Positions 43,389 to 56,478 of a stretch of 64,000 nucleotides of DNA are shown here, piece after piece. A program made the position numbers and the translations under genes. The stretch is from Schaalia hyovaginalis (GTDB lineage Bacteria; Actinomycetota; Actinomycetes; Actinomycetales; Actinomycetaceae), in NCBI RefSeq assembly GCF_014208035.1, contig NZ_JACHMK010000001.1, positions 2,046,001-2,110,000 of the forward strand. The letters run 5' to 3'. The number at the start of each line of letters is the position of its first letter. Position 1 is the stretch's first letter. The notes beneath the pieces were generated by a model. The model did not search any database and was not told the origin of the DNA. It saw nothing but the letters and a program-made list of their open reading frames with translations.

Positions 43389-45077
43389 GTGACCCGACCG
43401 ACCACCGGCCGCTCCACCTGGCGCCGACCTCTCGCTCTCACCAGCGCAGCCCTCGCGGCCCTCGCCCTGACCGCGTGCTCGCCCTCGACCGTCTTCAAGG
43501 GGGCCGGCGAGAATCCGGGGCCCCGCGTCGCCTCGGACGTCTCCCTCACCTCGGCATGGCAGCAATCCACCTACACCGACCTCTACAAGCAGAAGATCGC
43601 ATGGCGCCCCTGCACCGAAGAAGACGGACTCACCGCCACGGGCCTCGAGGCCGCCAAGGAGCAGGGCATCACCGCCGAGAACTTCGACTGCGCCCGAGTG
43701 CAGGCCCCGATGAACTGGGCCGATCCCGAAGATGAACGGACCACCGAACTGGCCGTCATGAGGCTGCGTTCCAAGGCCTCGGATGCGGCAGCGGGCTCGG
43801 AGAACGGCAAGGGCGGCAAGCCCCTCTTCATCAACCCCGGCGGCCCCGGCCTCACCGCGTCCTCGCTCGCCCTCGACCTGGCGAAGCAGGCCACCTTCGG
43901 CACCGTCCTCAAGGAGTACGACGTCTACGCCGTCGACCCGCGCGGCGTCGGAGCCTCGAGCCCCCTGGGCTGCCAGTCCTCCTCGACAATCCCCGCGCGC
44001 CGCCTCTCCGAATGCATCGCGAAGAACCCCCTCACCCGCTACATGGGCACCTCCCAAGTCGCCCGCGACATGGAGATGATGCGCTCCCTCACCGGCGCCG
44101 AGCGCTTCGACTACCTCGGCTACTCCTACGGAACGGTCCTCGGCTCGACCTACGCCACGCTCTTCCCCGGCAACGCCGGGCGCATGGTCCTCGACTCCGC
44201 CCTCGCGGGCGACTGGGCGCACCTGACCACGGGCTTCGACCAGCAGGTCGCCCTCTCCGCAGAGATCGACGCCATGATCGCGACCACCTGCGCTGACGGG
44301 ACCACCTGCCCCTTCACCGACACCGAGGGCCTGCTCGCCCTGCGCGATTCCCTCGACGCCTCCCCCTGGAAGGGGAGCGACGGCGCCGAGCTCTCCGGCG
44401 GCATGCTCGTCCAGTTCCTCGTCGACACGCTCTACAAGTCCCCGGCCGAACGCGCCCAGCGCCTCTCCGTCGTGAAGAAGGCAGCCGGAGGGGCCCAGGC
44501 GGACATCGACGAACTCCTCATCCTCGCCGGTATCAGCTCCTCCCCCGCCGACAAGCCGGCGGACGGCGGCCAGTCCGGTGCCGACGGCGCCCAGTCGGGC
44601 GCCCCGGAAGCCCCCTCCGGTCCCCTCTTCGACCCCACCGGTGAGGTCATCACCTGCCACTCCGCAATGAAGACCCCCGACGTCGCCGGCCTCGTCGAAC
44701 ACATGAAGAAGACCGGCGTGCCCGCGCTCATCGGCGGCCCCGAAGTCAACGACAAGACCATCGGCGACTTCGTCGACCTGCGCTGCGCGGTCCTCCCCGA
44801 GGTCGGAACCGACATCAACACGAGCTTCCACGCGCCCAACACGAAGACCCCGATCCTCGTCATCGGGACGAAGGGCGACCACGCGACGCCCTACGCCTTC
44901 TCGGAGCGCCTCGTCGAACAGCTCGGCAACGCCCGTCTGCTCACCTTCGACGCGCACGGGCACGGACTCTCCTTCGGCGGACGCTCCCCGCTCCTCGACC
45001 GGACGGTCGCCGACTACCTGGTGAACGGCACTCTTCCCGCCGAAGGCACCACCATCGCCGACGGAGCCGATCAGTGA
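43389..45077 (+). CDS. Tripeptidyl aminopeptidase-like secreted lipoprotein (paralogue 1)
   Basis: A 562-residue alpha/beta hydrolase with a lipoprotein signal (WRRPLALTSAALAALALTAC, Cys near residue 30). PLFINPGGPGLTASS is the oxyanion region, DYLGYSYGTVLGSTYA carries the nucleophile Ser, the catalytic Asp is in TKGDHATP and the His is in DAHGHGLSF. A cap insertion with a Gly/Ala/Asp/Ser-rich loop (about 385-415) is unique to this copy. This family trims tripeptides or other short peptides outside the cell in Streptomyces and relatives. The start is a GTG after AAGGAG. Four bases overlap the extended frame of its twin. Confidence 0.9.
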   Translation: MTRPTTGRSTWRRPLALTSAALAALALTACSPSTVFKGAGENPGPRVASDVSLTSAWQQSTYTDLYKQKIAWRPCTEEDGLTATGLEAAKEQGITAENFDCARVQAPMNWADPEDERTTELAVMRLRSKASDAAAGSENGKGGKPLFINPGGPGLTASSLALDLAKQATFGTVLKEYDVYAVDPRGVGASSPLGCQSSSTIPARRLSECIAKNPLTRYMGTSQVARDMEMMRSLTGAERFDYLGYSYGTVLGSTYATLFPGNAGRMVLDSALAGDWAHLTTGFDQQVALSAEIDAMIATTCADGTTCPFTDTEGLLALRDSLDASPWKGSDGAELSGGMLVQFLVDTLYKSPAERAQRLSVVKKAAGGAQADIDELLILAGISSSPADKPADGGQSGADGAQSGAPEAPSGPLFDPTGEVITCHSAMKTPDVAGLVEHMKKTGVPALIGGPEVNDKTIGDFVDLRCAVLPEVGTDINTSFHAPNTKTPILVIGTKGDHATPYAFSERLVEQLGNARLLTFDAHGHGLSFGGRSPLLDRTVADYLVNGTLPAEGTTIADGADQ

Positions 45078-45145
45078 CCCCGGGCAGGACCTCCGGCAAA
45101 CGCACCCCGCTTCATCTCGACCTCAGCGAAAAGGAGACCCCTTCC

Positions 45146-46738
45146 GTGACCGCAATGACGACCGGCCGCGCCTCCTGGCGCAAGCCCCTCGCCCTCACCA
45201 GTGCGATGCTCGCCGTGATCGGCCTCGCCGCCTGCTCGCCTGCCGCCCCGACCCGGGACTCGAGCGCTCAATCCGGAGCGCCCCTCGCCTCGGACACCAC
45301 CCTGGACGGCGCATGGCAGCAGCGGACCTACAAGAGCATCTACGAGCAGAAGATCGACTGGCACCCCTGCGCGTCCGAGGACGGACTGGACGACCAGGTC
45401 TCCCCGGTCCTCGAAGAGGCCAAGGTCGACGTCTCGGCTTACGAATGCGGCACCGTGAAGGCGCCGATGGACTGGACGAACCCCTCCGACACGAGGACGA
45501 TCGACCTCGCCGTCGTGAGGATCCCCTCCACCGGCGATCCCGATAAGGCGATCCCGCTCTTCATGAATCCGGGCGGCCCCGGCGCCAGCGGCGTCCAGCA
45601 GGCGATGGCCATGCCTGCGACCCCGGCCTACGCCAAGGTCATGGAGACCCATGAGACCTGGGGCTTCGACCCCCGGGGCGTCGGACGCTCGACCCCGGTC
45701 TCCTGCCCCTCCGAGTCCGAGCTCGGCGCCGTGCAGCTCGCTGAATGCGCCAAGGCGAACCCGGTCGCCCACTACATGGGCACCTCCTACGTCGCCCGCG
45801 ACATGGAGCTCCTCCGAGTCCTCTCGGGCGCGCCGCGCCTCGACTACCTCGGCTACTCCTACGGGACGATGCTCGGCGCGACCTACGCGACCCTCTTCCC
45901 CTCGACCGCCGGACGCATGATCCTCGACTCCGCCGAGAACGCGAAGTGGGGAAGCATCGAGCACAACTACGACCAGCAGGTCGCCGTCGCAAAGGCGGCC
46001 GGCGCCCTGGCCGACTCCTGCACGAAGATGACCACCCTGGAGGGCGCGCCCGTCACCTGTCCCTTCACCTCCGAACGGGAGATGCTCGACTACAAGAAGT
46101 CCCTCGACGAGACGCCGCTCAAGGCGAGCGACGGCACGGAGATCACCGGCTCGGTGCTCCGCGACTTCCTCACGAGCGCCCTCTACAACTTCCCCGAGGC
46201 CCAGGCCTCCTCCCTCGATCTCCTCGGCAAGGCCAAGTCCGGCGACCAGCAGGCGATCGACGAGCTCTCCGCGCAGATCGCGAGCGGCGGCGCCGAGATC
46301 GACACCGCCGGCCAGCTCACCGTCTGCCCCTCCACGCCGAAGACGCCCGACGTCGCCGGCCTCATCGAGCACATCAAGAAGGTGGGCGTCCCCGAGTTCA
46401 TCGGCGGCCCCGAGCTCACCGACGAGGTGATCTCCGAGTACACGAAGTTCGAGTGCGCGTCGCTGCCCGAGACCGGCACGGACTTCACGGACACCTTCGA
46501 CGCCTCCAAGGTGAAGAACCCGCTCCTCGTCATCGGCATCACCGGCGACCACGCCACCCCCTTCCAGCACGGCAAGGAACTCGCCGAGCAGCTCGGCAAA
46601 GCCTCCTTCCTCACCCTCGAGGGGACCGGCCACGGAGCCTCCTTCTCCGACCGTTCGAGCTGCGTCGACGCGGCAGCCGTCGACTACCTCAACACCGGCG
46701 CCCTGCCGGAGGAGGGCACCGTCTGCCAGGCCGGATGA
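45146..46738 (+). CDS. Tripeptidyl aminopeptidase-like secreted lipoprotein (paralogue 2)
   Basis: A 530-residue tandem paralogue of the preceding gene with the same order of motifs: lipobox LAAC, LFMNPGGPGASG, ETWGFDPRGVGRS, DYLGYSYGTMLGATYA with the nucleophile Ser, ITGDHATP (Asp) and GTGHGASF (His). It lacks the low-complexity loop of copy 1. I place the start at the GTG at 45146, 8 bases after AAGGAG; the frame is open to 45074. A perfect hairpin follows at 46761. Divergence in the cap suggests different peptide preferences. Confidence 0.9.
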   Translation: MTAMTTGRASWRKPLALTSAMLAVIGLAACSPAAPTRDSSAQSGAPLASDTTLDGAWQQRTYKSIYEQKIDWHPCASEDGLDDQVSPVLEEAKVDVSAYECGTVKAPMDWTNPSDTRTIDLAVVRIPSTGDPDKAIPLFMNPGGPGASGVQQAMAMPATPAYAKVMETHETWGFDPRGVGRSTPVSCPSESELGAVQLAECAKANPVAHYMGTSYVARDMELLRVLSGAPRLDYLGYSYGTMLGATYATLFPSTAGRMILDSAENAKWGSIEHNYDQQVAVAKAAGALADSCTKMTTLEGAPVTCPFTSEREMLDYKKSLDETPLKASDGTEITGSVLRDFLTSALYNFPEAQASSLDLLGKAKSGDQQAIDELSAQIASGGAEIDTAGQLTVCPSTPKTPDVAGLIEHIKKVGVPEFIGGPELTDEVISEYTKFECASLPETGTDFTDTFDASKVKNPLLVIGITGDHATPFQHGKELAEQLGKASFLTLEGTGHGASFSDRSSCVDAAAVDYLNTGALPEEGTVCQAG

Positions 46739-46760
46739 CGCCCGCAACGGCCTGACACCA

Positions 46761-46796
46761 GAGGCGGCCGCGAACCTTTCGGTTCGCGGCCGCCTC
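46761..46796 (+). terminator. Terminator after the peptidase pair
   Basis: A perfect 16-bp stem (GAGGCGGCCGCGAACC and its complement) with loop TTTC, 22 bases after the stop. From base 46764 onward this hairpin is part of the 83-bp direct repeat also found beside mdh, where the stem is 3 bp shorter at its base. Confidence 0.85.
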
Positions 46797-46846
46797 GTCA
46801 TTCGCGCTCCCGGCGGTGACCGGGGGCGCGCTCAGTGCGAGCGCGC
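46764..46846 (+). repeat. 83-bp direct repeat, left copy
   Basis: Identical, as far as I can read, to 55314-55396 (offset 8550). It covers most of the peptidase terminator plus a GC-rich stretch ending GTGCGAGCGCGC. The two copies exactly bracket the seven-gene sugar cluster. The left flank completes the terminator stem; the cluster's regulatory palindromes begin just past the right end. Confidence 0.92.
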
Positions 46847-46854
46847 ACATGCGT

Positions 46855-46911
46855 CACGAACATGATGCGCGCAACATTCGTGCACCCAGACGCCCCTCGC
46901 ACCTGGGTGCA
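46855..46911. promoter_or_regulatory. Nested inverted repeats, candidate operators of the sugar cluster
   Basis: CACGAA-N16-TTCGTG (46855-46882) overlaps a second perfect repeat TGCACCCAG-N13-CTGGGTGCA (46881-46911). They lie 100-150 bases before the first gene of the cluster. Long, spaced palindromes suit SorC-family regulators, which bind as tetramers; such a regulator is the last gene of this cluster. Confidence 0.55.
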
Positions 46912-46941
46912 TTTTCAGCGGCGGACTCCCCGGCCTCGGCA

Positions 46942-46955
46942 CGATGACGTCATCG
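46942..46955. promoter_or_regulatory. 14-bp perfect palindrome upstream of the isomerase gene
   Basis: CGATGACGTCATCG is fully self-complementary and 54 bases before the GTG start. It is a plausible operator for a global or local sugar regulator (LacI-like or SorC), distinct from the longer spaced repeats upstream. Confidence 0.45.
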
Positions 46956-47008
46956 AAATCATCGGAGCCCGATCGAGAAAGGCCCCGATTCGGAGCAAGG
47001 AGGCAGCA

Positions 47009-47485
47009 GTGGGACTGAGAATCGTCGTCGCCGCGGATTCCGCCGGAATCGAGTACAAGGAAGTCCTCAAGAAGGACCTCGAAGCCGATCCCCGAGTCGA
47101 TGAGGTCATCGACGCCGGCCTCGCCCCGGGCGAGGAGGTCGACTACCCCCACGTCGCCGTCAAGGCCGCGCGCCTCATCGCCAACGGAAGGGCCGACCGC
47201 GGGCTCTTCGTCTGCGGCACCGGTATGGGCGTCGCGATGGCGGCGAACAAGGTCCCCGGCATCCGCGCCTCCGTCGCGCACGACTCCTTCTCCGTCGAAC
47301 GCCTCATCAAATCGAACAACGCTCAGGTCCTCACCTTCGGCGAACGCGTGATCGGCCTCGAACTCGCGCGCCGGCTCGCGAAGGAATGGCTCGGCCACAC
47401 CTTCGACGAGACCTCGGCCTCCGCACCGAAGGTCGCCGCCCTCGAAGCCTACGATGCCGATCCGGCGTACGAACCGGCGATCTGA
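47009..47485 (+). CDS. RpiB/LacAB-type sugar-phosphate isomerase
   Basis: A 158-residue isomerase. AADSAGIEYKEVLKKDL is the substrate-phosphate region, YPHVAVKAARLIANG follows, and FVCGTGMGVAMAANKVPGI has the Cys base and anion hole; HDSFSVERLIKSNNAQVLTF supplies the ring-opening His. Members convert ribose-5-P, allose-6-P, galactose-6-P or, in erythritol operons (EryI/DerI), erythrulose-4-P. I start at the GTG at 47009 because AAGGAGG is 5 bases upstream; the frame is open to 46835 but overlaps the operators. It is the first gene of the cluster. Confidence 0.9.
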   Translation: MGLRIVVAADSAGIEYKEVLKKDLEADPRVDEVIDAGLAPGEEVDYPHVAVKAARLIANGRADRGLFVCGTGMGVAMAANKVPGIRASVAHDSFSVERLIKSNNAQVLTFGERVIGLELARRLAKEWLGHTFDETSASAPKVAALEAYDADPAYEPAI

Positions 47486-47616
47486 CCCAGAACACGGGGT
47501 CGCCCGTTTGCGAGCGCGGGCGGCCCCAGCGCCCCTCCGGGGGCGAGGCTCGCACGATCCCCTCCGGCCCCAACTCACCGTCGAGACGGGCCCCGTTTCT
47601 CTTCAAGGACGAAGAC

Positions 47617-48579
47617 ATGACACCTGATGCAGTTGCGACCTTCGCGTCCAATTTCGACCTCTTCTGGCTCATTCTCGCCGCCGCCGGCGGAGTGTTCGGC
47701 ACAATGATCGGCGCGAACTACGCATTCTCCTTCACAGGCGTGACGATCCTCCTCGGATTCGGCGTCGCCGCAGCCACCGGCAATACGATGGTCCTCGATT
47801 ACATCTCCTTCGGCCCGGCCTTCGGCCCGCACATCGCCTTCGCCGGCGGCGTCGCGGCCGCCGCCTACGCGGCGAAGAAGGGCTACCTTACGTCGGGCGG
47901 CAAGGACGTCAACAGCCCGCTCGCCGGCCTCGGCAGAGCGGATGTCCTCCTCATCGGCGCGCTCTTCGGCGTCGGGGGCTACCTCTTCCAGCGGCTCGTC
48001 ACCCACATCCCGTGGTTCGGCTCCCACACCGACTCAATCGCCTTCACCGTCGTCTGCTCCGGCGTCCTCGTCCGCATCCTCTTCGGACGCACCGGCGTGC
48101 TCCACTCGATCACCAAGCCCGAGGGCACCACCCGCTGGCTCGACTGGCAGGAGACCCCCGGCCAGCTCCTCACCGTGTCCGCCTCCTCCGGCCTCTTCGC
48201 CGCCGGCATCGCGACCATGCTCGTCGGCTACATCGCACCCCTCTCAGCGAATCCCGAGGCCATCATCGCGAACGCTCAGGTGATCCCCTTCGCGATCTCG
48301 GCCCTGTGCATCTTCTTCGTCGCAGGCGGCCTGAAGTTCCCGGTCACCCACCACATGACGATCTCCGCGGGCCTCGCCGCCGTCCTCTTCTTCAACGCGA
48401 CCGGCTCCGGCTTCCTCGCAATCAGCGTCGGCACCGCGTTCGGCATCCTCGCGGGCTTCGCGGGCGAGTACTTCGCGCGGCTCGCCTACGCCCACGGCGA
48501 CACGCACATCGACCCACCGGCCGGCGTCATCTGGCTCATGAATACCCTCGCGGTCTCCAGCGCGGCGCTCATCGCCTGA
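47617..48579 (+). CDS. Polytopic membrane protein of the sugar cluster
   Basis: A 320-residue protein with about nine hydrophobic segments (LFWLILAAAGGVFGTMIG, VTILLGFGVAAATGN, AFAGGVAAAAYAAKKGYL, ADVLLIGALFGVGGYLFQR and others). A conserved-looking polar motif KFPVTHHMTISAG lies in the penultimate segments, and a short acidic-aromatic loop TRWLDWQETPGQ in the middle. There is no ATP-binding partner or PTS domain. I do not recognise the family. Its place between isomerase and phosphatase genes, with no other transporter present, makes it the best candidate for sugar or polyol uptake. ATG at 47617 follows AAGGAC. Confidence 0.72.
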   Translation: MTPDAVATFASNFDLFWLILAAAGGVFGTMIGANYAFSFTGVTILLGFGVAAATGNTMVLDYISFGPAFGPHIAFAGGVAAAAYAAKKGYLTSGGKDVNSPLAGLGRADVLLIGALFGVGGYLFQRLVTHIPWFGSHTDSIAFTVVCSGVLVRILFGRTGVLHSITKPEGTTRWLDWQETPGQLLTVSASSGLFAAGIATMLVGYIAPLSANPEAIIANAQVIPFAISALCIFFVAGGLKFPVTHHMTISAGLAAVLFFNATGSGFLAISVGTAFGILAGFAGEYFARLAYAHGDTHIDPPAGVIWLMNTLAVSSAALIA

Positions 48580-48622
48580 CGCGGAATCCGCGGCACCGCA
48601 CGGCACGAGAAAGGAACGGACG

Positions 48623-49495
48623 GTGGAAACAGCAGCCGAACTCACTGCATGGCCCGAACGCCTGTACGAAGCCTACGTTTTCGACATGGACGGCACGATC
48701 TACTTGGGGGACCGCCTCCTCCCAGGAGCGAAGAGGCTCATCGAGGAGCTCCGCCGCCGCGGCATCCCCGTCCGTTTCCTCTCGAACAATCCGACGAAGG
48801 ACCCCGAGCAGTACGTCGCCAAACTCGCCGGGCTCGGCCTGCCGACCCCGGTCGAGGAAATCGCGAACACCGTCGTCACGACGACCCGCTGGCTCCTCGA
48901 GAACAAGCCGGGCCTCACCGTCTTCCCGATCTCTGAAGAACCCCTCAAGCGGACCTTCGCGAAGGCGGGGATCCGGATGAGCGAGAACCCCGAGGAGATC
49001 GACGTCGTCGTCGCCTCCTACGACCGGACCTTCGACTACCGCAAACTCCAGATCGCCTTCGACGCCATCTGGTTCCACAAGCGGGCCGTCCTCATCGCGA
49101 CGAACCCCGACCGTTTCTGCCCCTTCCCCGGGGGCCGCGGCGAACCCGACTGCGCCTCGATCATCGCCGCGATCGAGGCCTGCACGAACACGAAGTGCGA
49201 AATGGTCGTCGGCAAGCCCGACCCCGTCATGCTCTCCGCCGCACTCGGCGACCTCGACGTCGATCCGGCGAACTGCGTGATGGTCGGCGACCGCATCATG
49301 ACCGACATCCAAATGGCGGTGAACACGGGCATGCACTCCGCAATGCCCCTCACCGGCGAATCCACCCTCGCCGAGGCGCTCGACCTCGACGACGAGCACC
49401 GCCCCGACCACGTCCTCGACCGAATCGACCGGCTCATCCCGCGCGCCATGTGGGACGAGATCGGCTGGAGCGAGGACAACGACCCCATCGTCTGA
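48623..49495 (+). CDS. HAD-IIA (NagD/AraL-like) phosphatase
   Basis: A 290-residue HAD phosphatase. Motif I is FDMDGTIYLGD, motif II FLSNNPTKD, motif III/IV VVGKPDPVML and VGDRIMTDIQMAVNTGM; the C2 cap lies between motifs II and III and contains an unusual Cys pair (EACTNTKCEM). In Bacillus subtilis the relative AraL lies beside AraM in the arabinose operon and dephosphorylates sugar phosphates. Here it also precedes an AraM-like gene, which suggests a similar detoxifying or housekeeping role. It begins at a GTG after AAGGA. Confidence 0.88.
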   Translation: METAAELTAWPERLYEAYVFDMDGTIYLGDRLLPGAKRLIEELRRRGIPVRFLSNNPTKDPEQYVAKLAGLGLPTPVEEIANTVVTTTRWLLENKPGLTVFPISEEPLKRTFAKAGIRMSENPEEIDVVVASYDRTFDYRKLQIAFDAIWFHKRAVLIATNPDRFCPFPGGRGEPDCASIIAAIEACTNTKCEMVVGKPDPVMLSAALGDLDVDPANCVMVGDRIMTDIQMAVNTGMHSAMPLTGESTLAEALDLDDEHRPDHVLDRIDRLIPRAMWDEIGWSEDNDPIV

Positions 49496-49580
49496 CCCGC
49501 GGGGACGGCGCCGACCCATGACGCTCGGCCGCCCGCACCGCCAGTACCGCCCCTGAGCGGCCAGAAAGGAAGAGACCGAA

Positions 49581-51143
49581 ATGGTTGCACCCGGATACGA
49601 AGGCCCCTTCGTCATCGGCTTCGATTACGGCACCGAGTCGTGCCGCGCGGCGATCTTCGACCTCGCCGGCCACCCGATCGCCTTCGCCGCGACCCCCTAC
49701 AAGACCTACCACCCGCGCCCCGGCCAAGCGGAGCAGAACCCGAGCGACTGGTGGAACGCCCTCGTCGCCTCGACCCGCAAGGTCCTCGACGAGACCGGCA
49801 TCCCCGCCCGTCACATCGCCGGCATCTCCTACGACGCGACGACGATGACCGTCGTCGCGATGGACGAGAACGGGCGCGAGCTGCGCAACGCGATCATGTG
49901 GATGGACGTCCGCGCGACAGAGCAATCGTCCCGCGCCGAAACCATCGCCCACTGGGCGCGCCTGTACAACGGCGGCGGCACGATGCCTGCCACCGCCGAG
50001 TGGTACCCCTTCAAGGCCGCCTGGCTCAAGGAGAACGAGCCGGAGACCTACAAGCGGGCCCACCGCCTCGTCGACGCCCCCGAATGGCTCACCTACAAGC
50101 TCACCGGCGAGTGGACCCTCAACATCAACTCCGCCGCACTGCGCATGTACTACAACCGCGACAAGGGCGGCTGGCCCGTCGAGTTCTACGAGCACATCGG
50201 CTGCGGCGACGTCTTCGAGAAGATCCCCGAGAAGGTCTGCGACCTCGGCGTCCCGATCGGCGGCCTCTCCGTCTCCGCCGCCCAGGAGCTCGGGCTGCTC
50301 CCCGGCACCCCGGTCGCCCAGGGCTGCGCGGACGCGTGGGCCGGCCAGATCGGCCTCGGCGTCGTTTCCCCGGGCAAGACCGCCGTCATCACCGGCTCCT
50401 CCCACGTCATCACCGGCCAGTCCGGCAGCCCCCTCCACGGCGAGGGCTTCTTCGGCGGCTACACCGACGGAGTCATCCCCGGTCAGTACACCTGCGAGGG
50501 CGGCCTCGTCTCCTCCGGCTCAGTCCTCAAATGGTTCAAGGACAATTTCTGCAGAGACATCACCGGCGCCGCCGAGCGCCTCGGCATGAACCCCTACAAG
50601 ATCCTCGACGAACGCGTCGCCGACATTCCCGTCGGCTCGAACGGCCTCATCATCAACGAGTACTTCCAGGGCAACCGGACGCCCTACACCGATTCCAAGG
50701 CGCGCGGCATCATGTGGGGCCTCACCCTCGGCACAACACCCGAGCAGGTCTACCACGCGATCGAGGAGGCGGTCTGCTACGGCACCGCGCACGTCCTCAA
50801 GGCCTTCAAGGACGCCGGATTCGCCTCGACCGAGCTCGTCGCCTGCGGCGGCGCCACGAAGTCGCGGGACTGGATGCAGATGCACGCCGACGTCACCGGC
50901 CTGCCCGTCACCCTCACTGAGGTCGGCGACGCGGTCGTCCTCGGCTCGTGCATGCTCGCCGCCGTCGGCTCGGGCCAGTACCAGTCGATCCAGGACGCGG
51001 CCCGCAACATGGTCCGCGAGACCGCTCGCATCGAGCCCCGGCCCGAGGTTCACGAGGAATACCAGTTCTACCTCGAAAAGTACATGGAGACCTACCCGCG
51101 GATGCAGGAGCTCTCCCACCAGATGGTCGATCACCTCGCGTGA
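49581..51143 (+). CDS. FGGY-family carbohydrate kinase
   Basis: A 520-residue sugar/polyol kinase. The N-terminal ASKHA loop is GFDYGTESCRAAIFD (about 12-26), NAIMWMDVRATEQ is the substrate-binding region near 110, GCADAWAGQIGLG carries the catalytic Asp near 255, and the C-terminal ATP site is LVACGGATKSRDWMQMHADV. This is the FGGY subgroup that includes ribulo- and erythrito-kinases, but the substrate cannot be fixed from sequence. The ATG follows GAAAGGAAGAG. It is 22 bases upstream of the AraM-like gene. Confidence 0.9.
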   Translation: MVAPGYEGPFVIGFDYGTESCRAAIFDLAGHPIAFAATPYKTYHPRPGQAEQNPSDWWNALVASTRKVLDETGIPARHIAGISYDATTMTVVAMDENGRELRNAIMWMDVRATEQSSRAETIAHWARLYNGGGTMPATAEWYPFKAAWLKENEPETYKRAHRLVDAPEWLTYKLTGEWTLNINSAALRMYYNRDKGGWPVEFYEHIGCGDVFEKIPEKVCDLGVPIGGLSVSAAQELGLLPGTPVAQGCADAWAGQIGLGVVSPGKTAVITGSSHVITGQSGSPLHGEGFFGGYTDGVIPGQYTCEGGLVSSGSVLKWFKDNFCRDITGAAERLGMNPYKILDERVADIPVGSNGLIINEYFQGNRTPYTDSKARGIMWGLTLGTTPEQVYHAIEEAVCYGTAHVLKAFKDAGFASTELVACGGATKSRDWMQMHADVTGLPVTLTEVGDAVVLGSCMLAAVGSGQYQSIQDAARNMVRETARIEPRPEVHEEYQFYLEKYMETYPRMQELSHQMVDHLA

Positions 51144-51164
51144 CCGACCGGAAAGAGTAACGAC

Positions 51165-52526
51165 ATGTCTCAGGAATTGATCGAGCAGGCGCTGAAGACG
51201 GCGACGGACACGAAGGACATCCTCTTCGGCGCCGACGTCCTCGGCCGCACCGGTGAGCTCTTCGCCCGCGTCTTCCCCGGCGCCCGCGTGCTCGTCGTCG
51301 CCGACGGCAACACCTTCGCCGCCGCCGGGGAGGAGGTCGTCGCCTCCCTCGCGGCGGCCGGAGTCGAAGCGGCGGAGGAGCCCTACGTCTTCCCCGGCAC
51401 CCCGACCCTCTACGCCGGATACGAGAACGTCGAGATCCTCCGCGAGCACATCCGCCCCCTCGAGAACACCGTCGTGTGCTCGATCGCCTCGGGAACGCTC
51501 AACGACATCGCGAAGCTCGCCTCGGGCGAACTCGGACGCGAGTACATGAACGTGTGCACCGCCCCCTCCGTCGACGGCTACGCGTCCTTCGGAGCCTCGA
51601 TCTCGCGCGACGGCTTCAAGATCACCCGCGACTGCCCGGCACCGGCCGCCCTCGTCGCCGATCTCCGCGTCATCGCCGCCTCTCCGAAGCGCCTCATCGC
51701 GACCGGCTACGGCGACCTCATCGAGAAAATCCCCGCCGGCGCGGACTGGATCCTCGCCGACGAGCTCGGCATCGAAGCGATCGACGACTACGTGTGGTCC
51801 CTCGTCCAGGGCCCGCTCCGCGACGCACTCGCAGACCCCGAGCGGATCGGCGAGGGCGATGTCGAAGCGATCACCGGGCTCGCCGAGGGCAACATCATGT
51901 CGGGACTCGCAATGCAGGCCGCCCAATCCTCGCGCCCCGCCTCGGGCGCCGGGCACCAGTTCTCCCACGTGTGGGAGATGGAGGGCCACGGCCTCGACTG
52001 GGAGCCCCCGCTCTCTCACGGCATGAAGGTCGGCGTCGGCACGGTCGCCTCCTGCGCGATCTGGGAGGAGGCCCTGAAGATCGACGTCGGGGCGATCGAC
52101 GTCGAAGCGGTCGTCGTCGCGGCCCCGAGCGACGAGGAGGTCGAGGCGAAGGTCCGCTCGCTCATGATCCCGCGGATCGCGGACGAGGCCGTCAAGCACA
52201 CCGTGTTCAAGAACCTTCAGGGCGATGAGCTGCGCGCCCGCCTCGCCGATCTCAAACGCGTGTGGCCGCGTCTTGTCGAGCGGGTCCGCCCGCAGCTCAT
52301 TGCGCCGGAGAAAGCCGCCGAACGCCTCGAGAAGGTGGGCGCCCCCTCCCACCCGGAGATGATCGGCATCGATATGGATCGCTTCCGCGAGACCCACGTC
52401 AAGGCCCAGATGATCCGGTCGCGCTACACGATCCTCGACGCCCTCGTCGACATGGGCCTGTTCGACGAGGTCATCGCCAGGCTCTTCTCCCCGGACGGCT
52501 ACTGGGGCCGTCACCCCGGCGTCTGA
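51165..52526 (+). CDS. AraM-type sn-glycerol-1-phosphate dehydrogenase family
   Basis: A 453-residue iron-alcohol-dehydrogenase-fold enzyme. The NAD loop SGTLNDIAKLASGELGREY is near 107, TAPSVDGYASFGASI near 128, and metal ligands lie in GYGDLIEK (Asp), GAGHQFSHVW (His) and LSHGMKVGVGT (His). B. subtilis AraM makes glycerol-1-phosphate; catabolic relatives may instead oxidise a polyol phosphate. In this cluster it sits between two kinases, so a polyol-phosphate oxidation step is my inference. No archaeal-type lipid genes are present to suggest a membrane role. Confidence 0.88.
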   Translation: MSQELIEQALKTATDTKDILFGADVLGRTGELFARVFPGARVLVVADGNTFAAAGEEVVASLAAAGVEAAEEPYVFPGTPTLYAGYENVEILREHIRPLENTVVCSIASGTLNDIAKLASGELGREYMNVCTAPSVDGYASFGASISRDGFKITRDCPAPAALVADLRVIAASPKRLIATGYGDLIEKIPAGADWILADELGIEAIDDYVWSLVQGPLRDALADPERIGEGDVEAITGLAEGNIMSGLAMQAAQSSRPASGAGHQFSHVWEMEGHGLDWEPPLSHGMKVGVGTVASCAIWEEALKIDVGAIDVEAVVVAAPSDEEVEAKVRSLMIPRIADEAVKHTVFKNLQGDELRARLADLKRVWPRLVERVRPQLIAPEKAAERLEKVGAPSHPEMIGIDMDRFRETHVKAQMIRSRYTILDALVDMGLFDEVIARLFSPDGYWGRHPGV

Positions 52527-52630
52527 CCCCGCAGCTCTCGTGATTCCCGGCCCCGTCTCATCGAGGCGGGGCCGGATCCCCGTAGGGCCCTCCGCCCTGC
52601 ACGCATTCCCCCACTCGAAGAGGACGACAC

Positions 52631-54313
52631 ATGGTCAACGACGACCCCACGAACACCTACACCATCGGACTCGACTTCGGCACGCTCTCCGTGAGGGCTG
52701 CGGTCGTGCGCGTGAGCGACGGCGAGGTCCTCGCCGACGCCGTGCGCGAGTACGCGACTCCGATCATGGATCGGGCGCTCACCGTCGCGGGCGGGGCTCC
52801 CCTTCCGCCCGGCTACGCCCTCCAAGTCCCCGGCGACTACCTCACCGCGATGCGCGAGGCGGTGCCCGATGCGATCCGGGCCTCCGGCATCGATGGCTCC
52901 CGCGTCGTCGGCATCGGCCTTGATTGCACCTCGGCCTCGGTCCTCACGACCGACGCAGTGGGGAGGCCAATGTGCGAACGCCCCGAGTTCACCGCCGAAC
53001 CTCAGGCGTACCTCAAGCTGTGGAAGCACCACGGCGCTCAGCAGCAGGCCGACCGCATCGTCGCCCTCGCGAAGGAGCGCGGCGAGGAATGGCTCCCCCG
53101 CTACGGCGGGATCCTCTCCTCCGAGATGCTCCTCCCGAAGTCCCTCGAGCTCTTCGAACGCGCTCCCGAGCTCTACGCCCGCACCGCCGAGATCCTCGAT
53201 CTCGTTGATTGGCTGACATGGGTGCTCTCGGGCACCCTCGCCTACGCCGCGGGCGACTCCGGATACAAGCGCATGTACCAGAACGGGAAATACCCCGATC
53301 CTGATTTCCTTGAGGCGCTCGCTCCCGGGTTCGGGAAGGTCTTCACCGAGAAGATGAGCCACCCGATCGTCCCCCTCGGCTCCTGCGTCGACGGTCTGCG
53401 CGAGGAGTGGGCGATCGCCTTCGGCGTCCCCGCAGGGATCGCCGTCGCCGCCGGCAATATCGACGCGCACGTCCAGTGCGTATCCGTCGGTGCGATCGCC
53501 CCCGGTCAGCTCACCGGTATTCTCGGCACGTCCTCGTGCTGGATCCTCCCCTCGGCGGCTCTCGAGGAGGTCCCCGGAGTTTTCGGGGTCGTTGATGGTG
53601 GCGTGAGCGAGGGCGCATGGGCCTACGAGGCCGGGCAGTCGGCCGTCGGCGACATCTTCGCCTGGTTCGTCGACTCCTCGGTGCCCGCCTCCTACCTCGA
53701 GGAGGCCCGCGTTCGCGACGTGTCGGTCCACGAGGTTCTCACCGAGCGTGCGGCGAAGCAGAAGGTCGGGGAGCACGGCCTCATCGCCCTCGACTGGTGG
53801 AACGGGAACCGGTCGACCCTCGTCGACTCGCAGCTCTCCGGCCTCATGATCGGGCAGACGCTCCGGACGACCCCGGAGGAGCAGTACCGTGCGCTCCTCG
53901 AGTCGACGGCCTTCGGCGCCCGCGTCATCATCGAGAATTTCGAGGCGTGCGGAGTGCCGGTCGAGGAGATCTTCATCGCCGGCGGCCTGCTGCGGAATTC
54001 ATTCCTCATGCAGATGTACGCCGATGTCACACGGCGCCCGCTCAGGACCGCCCGCACCCTCCAGGCGGGCGCTCACGGTTCAGCGATCTTCGCGGCCGTC
54101 GCCGCCGGAGCCTACGAGGACGTGGCCGAGGCCGCGAAGGCGATGGCGGGCGTCTCCGAGGTTTCCTACGAACCGAACGAGTCCTCCGCGGTGGCTTACG
54201 ATGCGCTTTACACGCAGTACAGGAGGCTGTACGACCTGTTCGGACGGGAACTCGAAATGATGCACGACCTTCACGGAGTGCGCGTGGAGGCGCTCAGCGC
54301 GAGCGCCCGCTAA
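52631..54313 (+). CDS. araB: L-ribulokinase
   Basis: A 560-residue FGGY kinase with the AraB-specific wording: TIGLDFGTLSVRAAVV near 10-25, FTAEPQAYLKLWKHHGAQQQ, GGILSSEMLLPKSLELFE, the catalytic Asp in AAGNIDAHVQCVSVG and LTGILGTSSCW. AraB phosphorylates L-ribulose and several other 2-ketopentoses. In most bacteria it sits with araA (isomerase) and araD (epimerase); neither is present here, so the natural substrate may differ from arabinose-derived L-ribulose. The ATG has AGAGG upstream; the stop is 17 bases from the regulator start. Confidence 0.88.
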   Translation: MVNDDPTNTYTIGLDFGTLSVRAAVVRVSDGEVLADAVREYATPIMDRALTVAGGAPLPPGYALQVPGDYLTAMREAVPDAIRASGIDGSRVVGIGLDCTSASVLTTDAVGRPMCERPEFTAEPQAYLKLWKHHGAQQQADRIVALAKERGEEWLPRYGGILSSEMLLPKSLELFERAPELYARTAEILDLVDWLTWVLSGTLAYAAGDSGYKRMYQNGKYPDPDFLEALAPGFGKVFTEKMSHPIVPLGSCVDGLREEWAIAFGVPAGIAVAAGNIDAHVQCVSVGAIAPGQLTGILGTSSCWILPSAALEEVPGVFGVVDGGVSEGAWAYEAGQSAVGDIFAWFVDSSVPASYLEEARVRDVSVHEVLTERAAKQKVGEHGLIALDWWNGNRSTLVDSQLSGLMIGQTLRTTPEEQYRALLESTAFGARVIIENFEACGVPVEEIFIAGGLLRNSFLMQMYADVTRRPLRTARTLQAGAHGSAIFAAVAAGAYEDVAEAAKAMAGVSEVSYEPNESSAVAYDALYTQYRRLYDLFGRELEMMHDLHGVRVEALSASAR

Positions 54314-54330
54314 GGGGGATGAAAGGCATC

Positions 54331-55278
54331 ATGGACGGCGATCGCGAACTGCTCGTGCTCCGAGCAGCGCAGCTCTACTACTACGAGAACATGACGCAGG
54401 ACGCGATCGCCGACCGCATGAACTGCACGCGGTGGACAGTCGGTCGTCTCCTCGAGGAGGCCCGCCAATCGGGAATCGTTTCGATCACGATCAATCACCC
54501 GAGGGCGCGCGTGCGCGACCTCGAGAAGGAGATCATCTCCGGGTTCGGGATCGTGGAGGCGATCGTCGTCCGCGCGCAGGAGTCCCTCGCGGCGACGGGC
54601 GCGCTCGTCGCCTCCGCAACTGCGGACTACATCACCGCGATCCGCCCGACTCCGCGTTCGCTCGGCATCGCCTGGGGGCGTTCGCTCACCGCGGTCGCAC
54701 GGGCGATGCCCGACGAGTGGACCTCTGGTCTCGACGTCTACCAGATGTACGGGGGGCTCGTCCGTTCGAACGACGATGAGGTCGCCGATTCGATCGGCCT
54801 CATGGCCAGGCGCGGTCACGGTGTCGGTCACATGATCCCCGCTCCGGCGATCGTCACGGACCCGGATCTGGGGATCCGTTTGCGGCGGGAGCCATCGGTT
54901 GCGACGACTCTCGAGGCGGGACCCGATTCCGATCTCGTCGTCTTCTCCCCCGGGATCCTCGAACCCGAATCGGTCCTCGTGCGTTCAGGTTTCCTCACGG
55001 CGCGCGGCATGGACAGGCTCCGCGACCTCGGCGCGGTCACCGATCTCTTCTCGCATTTCGTCGACGCCGAGGGCAGACCGGTGTCGGCGGAGCTCGAGCA
55101 TCGGACGATCGCCGTCACTCTCGACGCCGTGAAGCGGGCGAAGCGCACGCTCGCGATCGGTTGGGGCCCGAACAAGGCCCGCCCCCTCGTCGTGTGCATG
55201 CGCTCCGGTCTCGCGAAATCCATCATCATCGATGAGGACACGGCCCGGCTCATCCTCGAGGTCGGCGCCTCCGCGTGA
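54331..55278 (+). CDS. SorC/EryD-family transcriptional regulator
   Basis: A 315-residue regulator. An N-terminal HTH (LYYYENMTQDAIADRMNCTR, then WTVGRLLEEARQSGIVSI, about 15-55) is joined to a sugar-phosphate-binding SorC domain with SLGIAWGRSLTAVARAMP, DLVVFSPGILEPES and GWGPNKARPLVV. Family members (SorC, DeoR of B. subtilis, CggR, EryD) respond to phosphorylated sugars. It ends the operon, so the system is probably autoregulated through the operators at 46.86-46.96 kb. I prefer the ATG at 54331 with AAAGG 4 bases upstream over 54319. Confidence 0.9.
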   Translation: MDGDRELLVLRAAQLYYYENMTQDAIADRMNCTRWTVGRLLEEARQSGIVSITINHPRARVRDLEKEIISGFGIVEAIVVRAQESLAATGALVASATADYITAIRPTPRSLGIAWGRSLTAVARAMPDEWTSGLDVYQMYGGLVRSNDDEVADSIGLMARRGHGVGHMIPAPAIVTDPDLGIRLRREPSVATTLEAGPDSDLVVFSPGILEPESVLVRSGFLTARGMDRLRDLGAVTDLFSHFVDAEGRPVSAELEHRTIAVTLDAVKRAKRTLAIGWGPNKARPLVVCMRSGLAKSIIIDEDTARLILEVGASA

Positions 55279-55313
55279 TGCTTCGGACCGGTCTTCCGCC
55301 GAGAACGGTGAAA

Positions 55314-55396
55314 GCGGCCGCGAACCTTTCGGTTCGCGGCCGCCTCGTCATTCGCGCTCCCGGCGGTGACCGGGGGCGCGCTCAGTGCGAGCGCGC
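55314..55396 (+). repeat. 83-bp direct repeat, right copy
   Basis: Second copy of 46764-46846. It begins 35 bases after the regulator stop and ends 5 bases before the mdh stop codon (minus strand). Its hairpin (13-bp stem) can still terminate transcription from both sides. Confidence 0.92.
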
Positions 55397-55401
55397 CTGG
55401 A

Positions 55402-56478
<1,077 letters not shown>

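Follow-up and report, generated by a model that had tools for sequence, protein, structure and literature searches.

Among the described systems closest to the cassette analysed here are the erythritol pathway of Brucella and Rhizobium (EryA-EryB-EryC-EryH-EryI, with EryD/EryR), in which EryA is an FGGY kinase, EryB is of the GlpD type and EryD is a SorC-type regulator, and the araABDLMNPQ-abfA operon of Bacillus subtilis. The cassette lies in a window of 64,000 nucleotides of Schaalia hyovaginalis DNA (contig NZ_JACHMK010000001.1, positions 2,046,001 to 2,110,000), where seven plus-strand genes at 47009-55278 encode, in order, an RpiB-family isomerase, a membrane protein related to DUF7973, a haloacid dehalogenase (HAD) phosphatase, an FGGY kinase that we call FGGY2, an AraM-like dehydrogenase, an AraB-type kinase and, as in the case of EryD, a SorC-type regulator. 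These gene calls bear out the seven co-directional, closely spaced genes of the initial annotation, at slightly narrower limits than the 46847-55313 given there, with distances of 131, 43, 85, 21, 104 and 5 bp between them. The gene names also agree with Pfam and NCBIfam profiles, with refinements for AraB, FGGY2 and AraM described below. Besides AraB, the cassette shares an AraL-like HAD phosphatase and AraM with the B. subtilis operon, but it lacks araA and the transporter of that operon, has araD in relatives only, and adds RpiB, FGGY2 and DUF7973. Likeness to the Brucella/Rhizobium pathway extends to a polyol-phosphate dehydrogenase with an RpiB-family isomerase (passages of PMC5992420) and to an FGGY kinase, EryA in that system (passages of PMC3245297). 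In contrast, FGGY2 is 24% identical (76 bits) to the EryA-like kinase of a Rhizobium locus (L161, where the kinase was assigned by eye from its neighbours), and AraM stands in place of EryB. EryC and EryH were not found among the neighbouring genes of the window, and no GlpD-type EryB appeared in a profile scan of the seven cassette proteins and MDH, the other neighbours being judged by eye. The tetritol pathways of Mycobacterium smegmatis (EltD, LerK, LerI, DerI) also use an RpiB-family isomerase, and the cassette RpiB shares a clade with that of a plasmid locus of similar make-up; genes for a dihydroxyacetone kinase (DAK) and a medium-chain (MDR) dehydrogenase flank some Propionibacteriaceae and Trueperella cassettes. 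EltD is described as oxidising the free polyol before the kinase acts (passages of PMC10733421), whereas the FGGY-AraM pair suggests the reverse order. Finally, an 'araBML' island of Propionibacterium freudenreichii, with two araB-like kinases, araM and araL, holds the same four kinds of genes as our locus L142 (loci and genomes are cited by L and G numbers). Passages of PMC4437456 file that island under L-arabinose and describe araM and araL as non-essential, and within those passages the RpiB, DUF7973, transketolase and DAK neighbours go unmentioned.

We propose that the cassette serves the catabolism of erythritol and/or a pentitol, with phosphorylation before oxidation, a reading that we hold with about even confidence. 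The gene set, its conservation, its neighbours, the grouping of its RpiB and an upstream motif are observed, and from these we infer every substrate and reaction named here. DUF7973 would import the polyol, FGGY2 would phosphorylate it, and AraM would use NAD(P) to oxidise the resulting polyol phosphate to a ketose phosphate; RpiB would then convert D-erythrulose-4-phosphate to D-erythrose-4-phosphate, which transketolase would pull into the pentose phosphate pathway. A pentitol branch would use AraB and AraM, plus AraD where it is present in cis or in trans, for example from L-arabitol through L-arabitol-5-phosphate and L-ribulose-5-phosphate to D-xylulose-5-phosphate. The HAD phosphatase may drain surplus sugar phosphates, and the SorC-type protein may sense an intermediate and act at a conserved site 5' of rpiB. 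For the FGGY2-AraM-RpiB branch, erythritol is the leading candidate substrate, followed by ribitol (adonitol). The initial annotation had already placed a kinase, a polyol-phosphate dehydrogenase and an isomerase in series towards the pentose phosphate pathway, and this order is now supported by the RpiB tree, by transketolase and DAK neighbours and by polyol-fermenting propionibacteria. It had also seen a mixture of arabinose and erythritol themes, of which the erythritol part applies to the logic alone. FGGY2 has no close similarity to the EryA-like kinase compared, and AraM does not belong to the GlpD-type EryB family; the first two steps fall to enzymes that are unrelated or without assignment.

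The set recurs in Actinomycetaceae and Propionibacteriaceae. In one AraM scan of named genomes, RpiB, DUF7973, HAD, FGGY2, AraM and AraB are all present in 19 of 38 loci, in the same order and strand in 16, which answers the question raised initially of whether the gene set recurs in other actinobacterial genomes; locus L020 was removed by hand from this count, its AraB match being FGGY2. The remaining 19 loci are without one or more of the six genes, and a contig end explains some of these. The shared core consists of FGGY2-AraM and HAD, mostly with DUF7973 and RpiB, and is also found in loci without AraB (L020, L021, L125, L143). Of 121 genomes of the window's family, 41 had an AraM match; the 35 whose match is full-length and reaches 568 bits or more were kept, and the other six, with weak or broken matches, were excluded. 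In the window's genus, seven further genomes were searched and all seven lack AraM. Among Propionibacteriaceae, 36 of 77 genomes have AraM matches, with Propionimicrobium lymphophilum, Micropruina glycogenica and P. freudenreichii among the members identified. When 393 genomes were drawn from the class, AraM of at least 500 bits was found in the window's own genome and one Propionibacteriaceae genome only; the listing of this draw shows the own genome alone from its family. Neighbourhoods around AraM were fetched for 74 loci, with some genomes counted twice among them (as in L039/L145 and L021/L122) and kinship ignored. In-frame stops had been flagged in some AraM paralogues; BLAST alignments of the fetched loci, which span part of the genes, contain none, and we treat the flagged stops as probable end effects.

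The isomerase (47009..47485, plus strand; PF02502) is of the Cys type, with the motif CGTGMG, and is a candidate D-erythrulose-4-phosphate isomerase. The window's genome encodes a second, actinobacterial housekeeping RpiB with the motif GGSGNGEQ. On the DerI/EryI model NF051858 (cut-off 240) the cassette protein scores 150 bits and the housekeeping protein 62, whereas on the ribose-5-phosphate isomerase model TIGR02133 (cut-off 168.2) they score 175.5 and 194 bits. In a phylogenetic tree, 34 cassette RpiBs, including that of the window, form one clade with five plasmid RpiBs (98/95; long branches are flagged), and all 21 reference sequences lie beyond a 100/99 branch from it. These references are the genome's second RpiB and 20 picked matches outside AraM cassettes, three of which (L177-L179) carry the CGTG motif and may not be housekeeping enzymes. 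The RpiBs of L021, L023 and L030 fall outside the cassette clade, and the Rhizobium ery-type RpiB is placed with those three. A DAK-type kinase gene is present in three of the five plasmid loci, annotated in L158 and recognised by eye in L182 and L183. The annotated Arthrobacter locus L158 holds sugar ATP-binding cassette (ABC) proteins, dihydroxyacetone kinase, RpiB, a triose-phosphate isomerase (TIM)-family protein, DeoR and an alcohol dehydrogenase, and by analogy with EltD/LerK/LerI/DerI, as described in passages of PMC10733421, may be a tetritol-type set.

The pairing of kinase and dehydrogenase genes points in the same direction as the proposed order of reactions. FGGY2 (49581..51143, plus strand; FGGY_N/C) scores below every FGGY equivalog cut-off in the profile scan and belongs to an FGGY subfamily without assignment, which makes it a candidate erythritol or pentitol kinase. 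AraM (51165..52526, plus strand; Fe-ADH_2, PF13685) is an iron-type alcohol dehydrogenase and a candidate NAD(P)-linked polyol-phosphate dehydrogenase. Judged by its sequence it is a distant relative of glycerol-1-phosphate dehydrogenase (G1PDH), with 177.8 bits against a cut-off of 413 on the equivalog model NF002022, and its Asp (GDL), His (GHQFSH) and His (HGMKVG) align with the metal-ligand positions of PDB 9h4x; we take these residues to be metal ligands of the G1PDH type. Enzymes of that type suit the phosphates of erythritol, ribitol, xylitol and L-arabitol, and GpsA-type enzymes suit the opposite stereochemical series. FGGY2 lies directly 5' of araM in many loci, and a same-strand FGGY gene was found within 400 bp of 56 of the 75 AraM-like genes examined. 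Paired paralogues, FGGY2-like (40-48%) and AraM-like (44-52%), occur in five loci. Genomes G055 and G076 each have two AraM genes at separate loci, one adjoining FGGY2 with RpiB nearby and the other adjoining AraB, and thus keep one dehydrogenase per kinase, as two branches would predict. A kinase followed by a dehydrogenase in series is the simplest reading of the FGGY-AraM pairing. AraB (52631..54313, plus strand) is, by profile, clearly of the L-ribulokinase type, exceeding both equivalog cut-offs (NF003154, 657.4 against 428 bits; TIGR01234, 632.6 against 583.25 bits), and is a candidate pentulo- or pentitol kinase; Escherichia coli AraB acts on ribitol and L-arabitol.

Some related pairs stand apart from the cassette. 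At L152:7758-12453, adjoining a ribosomal protein operon, an FGGY2-like kinase and an AraM-like dehydrogenase are accompanied by a DeoC-like aldolase and a GFO/IDH-like oxidoreductase (both by eye), possibly a related pathway for another sugar alcohol. Small ORFs had suggested a microcompartment link for such paralogues, and this was rejected, the small ORFs of L152 and L154 being ribosomal protein genes by sequence. In L155 a 38% AraM paralogue is clustered with an FGGY kinase, DAK and TIM, and with a class II aldolase and a split transketolase recognised by eye. A GpsA-like dehydrogenase adjoins a XylB-type FGGY kinase 3' of AraB in L012, L018, L024, L028 and others, and this couple is possibly a mirror-image kinase-dehydrogenase pair.

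In Propionibacteriaceae the neighbours and the known phenotypes are consistent with polyol use. Transketolase adjoins the cassette in 10 of 14 FGGY2-AraM core loci of this family, in three genera (L126, with a 48% FGGY2, was left out). A DAK-type kinase occurs in 9 of the 74 fetched loci and a TIM gene in two loci only (L142 and L155). The arrangement DeoR-RpiB-DUF7973-HAD-FGGY2-AraM-AraB-transketolase, with a DAK gene near, is found in all of three type strains, P. freudenreichii DSM 20271T (G570), Acidipropionibacterium acidipropionici (G536) and A. virtanenii (G514). L-erythrulose-1-phosphate has reportedly been met with in Propionibacterium pentosaceum, going by reference titles and a passing remark. 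Strain DSM 20271 is described as growing on erythritol and adonitol, and according to passages of PMC4437456 all 21 P. freudenreichii strains surveyed ferment both, neither pathway being reconstructed there. A table in PMC6920887 gives the listed Acidipropionibacterium strains as positive for erythritol, adonitol and D- and L-arabitol. A literature search on the Cutibacterium phenotype yielded no fitting title. The cassette is a good candidate for the erythritol/adonitol pathway missing in cheese propionibacteria.

A number of observations weigh against a polyol cassette with an erythritol branch. The RpiB scores above the cut-off of the ribose-5-phosphate isomerase model but below that of the (rhizobial) D-erythrulose-4-phosphate isomerase model, and its clade includes two Streptomyces RpiBs whose loci differ in content, so that clade membership alone does not settle function. 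FGGY2 is nearer to ribulokinases and pentulokinases (AraB, XylB-type) than to the EryA-like kinase. Same-strand FGGY neighbours are absent for 19 of the 75 AraM-like genes, 10 of these 19 being paralogues of 44-47% identity, and five named loci (L026, L027, L031, L032, L033) have AraM-AraB without RpiB, DUF7973 and FGGY2 on contigs that continue. Because the TIM of L142 scores above the cut-off for ordinary triose-phosphate isomerase and the transketolase passes an ordinary model, either may be a housekeeping enzyme. The phenotypes are also mixed. In the passages of PMC4437456, L-arabitol is used by 11 of 21 P. freudenreichii strains and D-arabitol by none of 21, even though every strain is stated to carry the locus; with L-arabitol use variable and D-arabitol use absent, the locus alone cannot account for all pentitols. 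Because P. freudenreichii uses many sugars, its phenotype does not single out a substrate either. According to a passage of PMC3035375, Arcanobacterium haemolyticum 11018T does not ferment erythritol, adonitol or L-arabitol; the cassette is present in ET43 (L012), a strain labelled as A. haemolyticum. Ancrocorticia populi is given as negative for erythritol, adonitol, xylitol and D-arabitol in a passage of PMC6612551, and for this genus an AraM was seen only under the label 'Ancrocorticia sp.'.

The same evidence can be read as a pathway for pentitols only, which we regard as possible but rather doubtful. FGGY2 and AraB would phosphorylate ribitol, xylitol or L-arabitol, AraM would oxidise the pentitol-5-phosphates, RpiB would be a ribose-5-phosphate isomerase, and AraD would finish the L-ribulose-5-phosphate branch. 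The TIGR02133 score, the strong tie of AraM to AraD and AraB, and the fermentation of adonitol by all 21 P. freudenreichii strains (as given in PMC4437456) agree with this, as do a Lys, an Asp and a Glu of FGGY2 aligned to AraB K170, D278 and E333, though the XylB-type kinase has them too. However, the cassette RpiB far outscores the housekeeping RpiB on the DerI model and groups with the RpiBs of DAK-kinase loci, and since the genome has that separate housekeeping RpiB, a dedicated isomerase would be unneeded for ribulose-5-phosphate.

The distribution of the ara genes bears on whether these are accessory genes for L-arabinose, as in the B. subtilis operon and as the P. freudenreichii authors assigned a like locus (passages of PMC4437456). 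We consider this unlikely. The initial annotation had argued against ordinary arabinose use chiefly from the absence of araA and araD, which is true of the window only; we reject this argument, given araA-araD elsewhere in the genome and araD near araM in relatives. In the window's genome araA and araD lie together at C1 ~1975601-1977852, about 115 kb from the cassette, within an ara locus (C1 ~1975601-1983276; L043:8602-16277) that also holds a LacI-type regulator and an ABC importer and has no araB among its called genes. The cassette AraB is the sole TIGR01234 match over cut-off in this genome, which favours a part in arabinose use, as does its L-ribulokinase profile. But the same-genus genomes G009 and G097, in which the same ara locus is likewise without araB, have neither AraM nor a TIGR01234 AraB over cut-off, and araM and araL were called non-essential. 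Among the 121 family genomes, full-length AraM is present in 35, araA in 33 and both in 5, so that araA occurs in 5/35 AraM-positive against 28/86 other genomes (Fisher p 0.045 for depletion; kinship is ignored here and in the next test). As for linkage of ara genes to the set, 24 of the 35 genomes have araD no more than 5 kb from araM. In a further 6 araD is elsewhere, beside araA in 4 of those (the window's genome included), and 5 have none over cut-off. Within araA-negative genomes, araD is found in 25/30 with AraM against 8/58 without (p 2e-10). TIGR01234 AraB was tested in 32 hand-chosen genomes, of which 10 exceeded the cut-off: 10 of 12 that are AraM-positive and none of 20 that are AraM-negative, 15 of the latter being araA-positive. 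The conclusion that this is not ordinary arabinose use thus stands on other evidence than was first given, namely the araA counts and the AraB counts (10/12 against 0/15). AraB and AraD co-occur with AraM and not with AraA, which suggests that L-ribulose-5-phosphate is formed as an intermediate by a route other than arabinose isomerase.

Import of free ketopentoses (D- or L-ribulose) as such, with AraB and FGGY2 both acting as ribulokinases, is improbable. FGGY2 resembles pentulose kinases, and enterohaemorrhagic E. coli uses its L-ribulokinase AraB for D-ribulose (abstract of PMC12307932), but this would leave no role for AraM, which in most loci has one of the two kinases as its partner. Production of glycerol-1-phosphate by AraM for archaeal-type ether lipids is very improbable: AraM shares homology, and an alignment of three presumed metal ligands, with glycerol-1-phosphate dehydrogenases, and the AraM of B. 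subtilis has this function (passages of PMC13400652), but PcrB is over cut-off in none of the 121 family genomes, the window's own included (9 weak partial matches; B. subtilis control positive), and the gene context is one of carbohydrate use.

If the cassette does serve polyol catabolism by phosphorylation before oxidation, it would provide genes for the polyol pathways that the 21-strain survey of dairy propionibacteria could not reconstruct (passages of PMC4437456), and a locus filed under L-arabinose would be reassigned. A bacterial G1PDH homologue would gain a physiological role and DUF7973 would become a testable transporter candidate. Among the titles listed by a literature search, with subscription journals mostly outside its scope, none assigned the cassette to a polyol pathway. 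Much more tentatively, AraM dehydrogenases paired with FGGY kinases might, as a general class, oxidise polyol phosphates with NAD and with G1P-like stereochemistry, mirrored by the GpsA-like partners, of opposite stereochemistry, of other FGGY kinases. In anaerobes such enzymes might take over from the flavin-linked EryB; they might also account for erythritol and adonitol use in propionibacteria, for which a pathway is missing, and explain Bacillus araM/araL as a side route for L-arabitol-5-phosphate.

The membrane protein (47617..48579, plus strand) gave no family match in a Pfam or NCBIfam scan. A protein search found 549 proteins at E <= 0.001 among 8000 scored, and PF25928 (DUF7973) is assigned to the 120 listed. 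Its AlphaFold2 model is mostly helical, with a mean predicted local distance difference test (pLDDT) score of 93.4. The short half-length helices of this model, and the many Gly, Pro and His positions that are invariant, suggest a transporter or channel family without assignment; as a polyol permease it is a candidate by gene position. The best hit of a profile search against PDB sequences had an E of 0.39, too weak to be of use. The HAD-IIA phosphatase (48623..49495, plus strand; Hydrolase_6/Hydrolase_like) resembles AraL, NagD and phosphoglycolate phosphatase, scores 113.9 bits on TIGR01460 against a cut-off of 100.15, and may act as a sugar-phosphate relief valve.

The SorC-type regulator (54319..55278, plus strand), with its sugar-phosphate-binding domain, matches PF04198 with 158.9 bits (cut-off 27) and scores 178 bits on NF053881, under the cut-off of 420. 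Of the 38 named loci, 7 have a SorC gene next to AraB; in many others a DeoR/GlpR-type gene lies upstream of the set or within it instead. A candidate operator, GTGCR-N19-TGGGTGCA, lies at 46880..46911 on the plus strand, about 100-130 bp 5' of rpiB. This 32-bp motif is found with constant spacing and at a similar position 5' of rpiB in L002, L003, L005 and L006, that is in five of eight SorC-type loci including the window, and was not found in the SorC-type loci L004, L009 and L034; the window copy contains the inverted repeat TGCACCCAG...CTGGGTGCA. It is the sole zero-mismatch site in its genome; with one mismatch there are 16 matches, among them this same site read on the opposite strand. 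A stray exact copy is present in the fetched locus L154. Four identical 32-bp copies with one mismatch to the motif (C1:773859, 780602, 1319195 and 1869067) are probably part of a repeated element.

Upstream, a perfect inverted repeat with 14-bp arms and a 4-base loop (46763..46794, plus strand) lies just 3' of the preceding S33-like peptidase gene. From its sequence it is probably the 5' boundary of the cassette and may act as a terminator; no T-run follows it and the terminator scan did not pick it up. That scan found no terminator-like sites on the plus strand of 46500-55700, and the minus-strand count corresponds to chance. Two tandem genes for TAP/S33-like alpha/beta-hydrolase secreted peptidases (43389-46738, by eye) stand between purU and the cassette. 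In three genomes of the same genus neither this pair nor the cassette had a match in the purU-mdh stretch, which is thus variable within the genus. The mdh-purU neighbourhood hosts the cassette in several genera (L002, L005 and the window), with the orientation relative to mdh reversed in the window.

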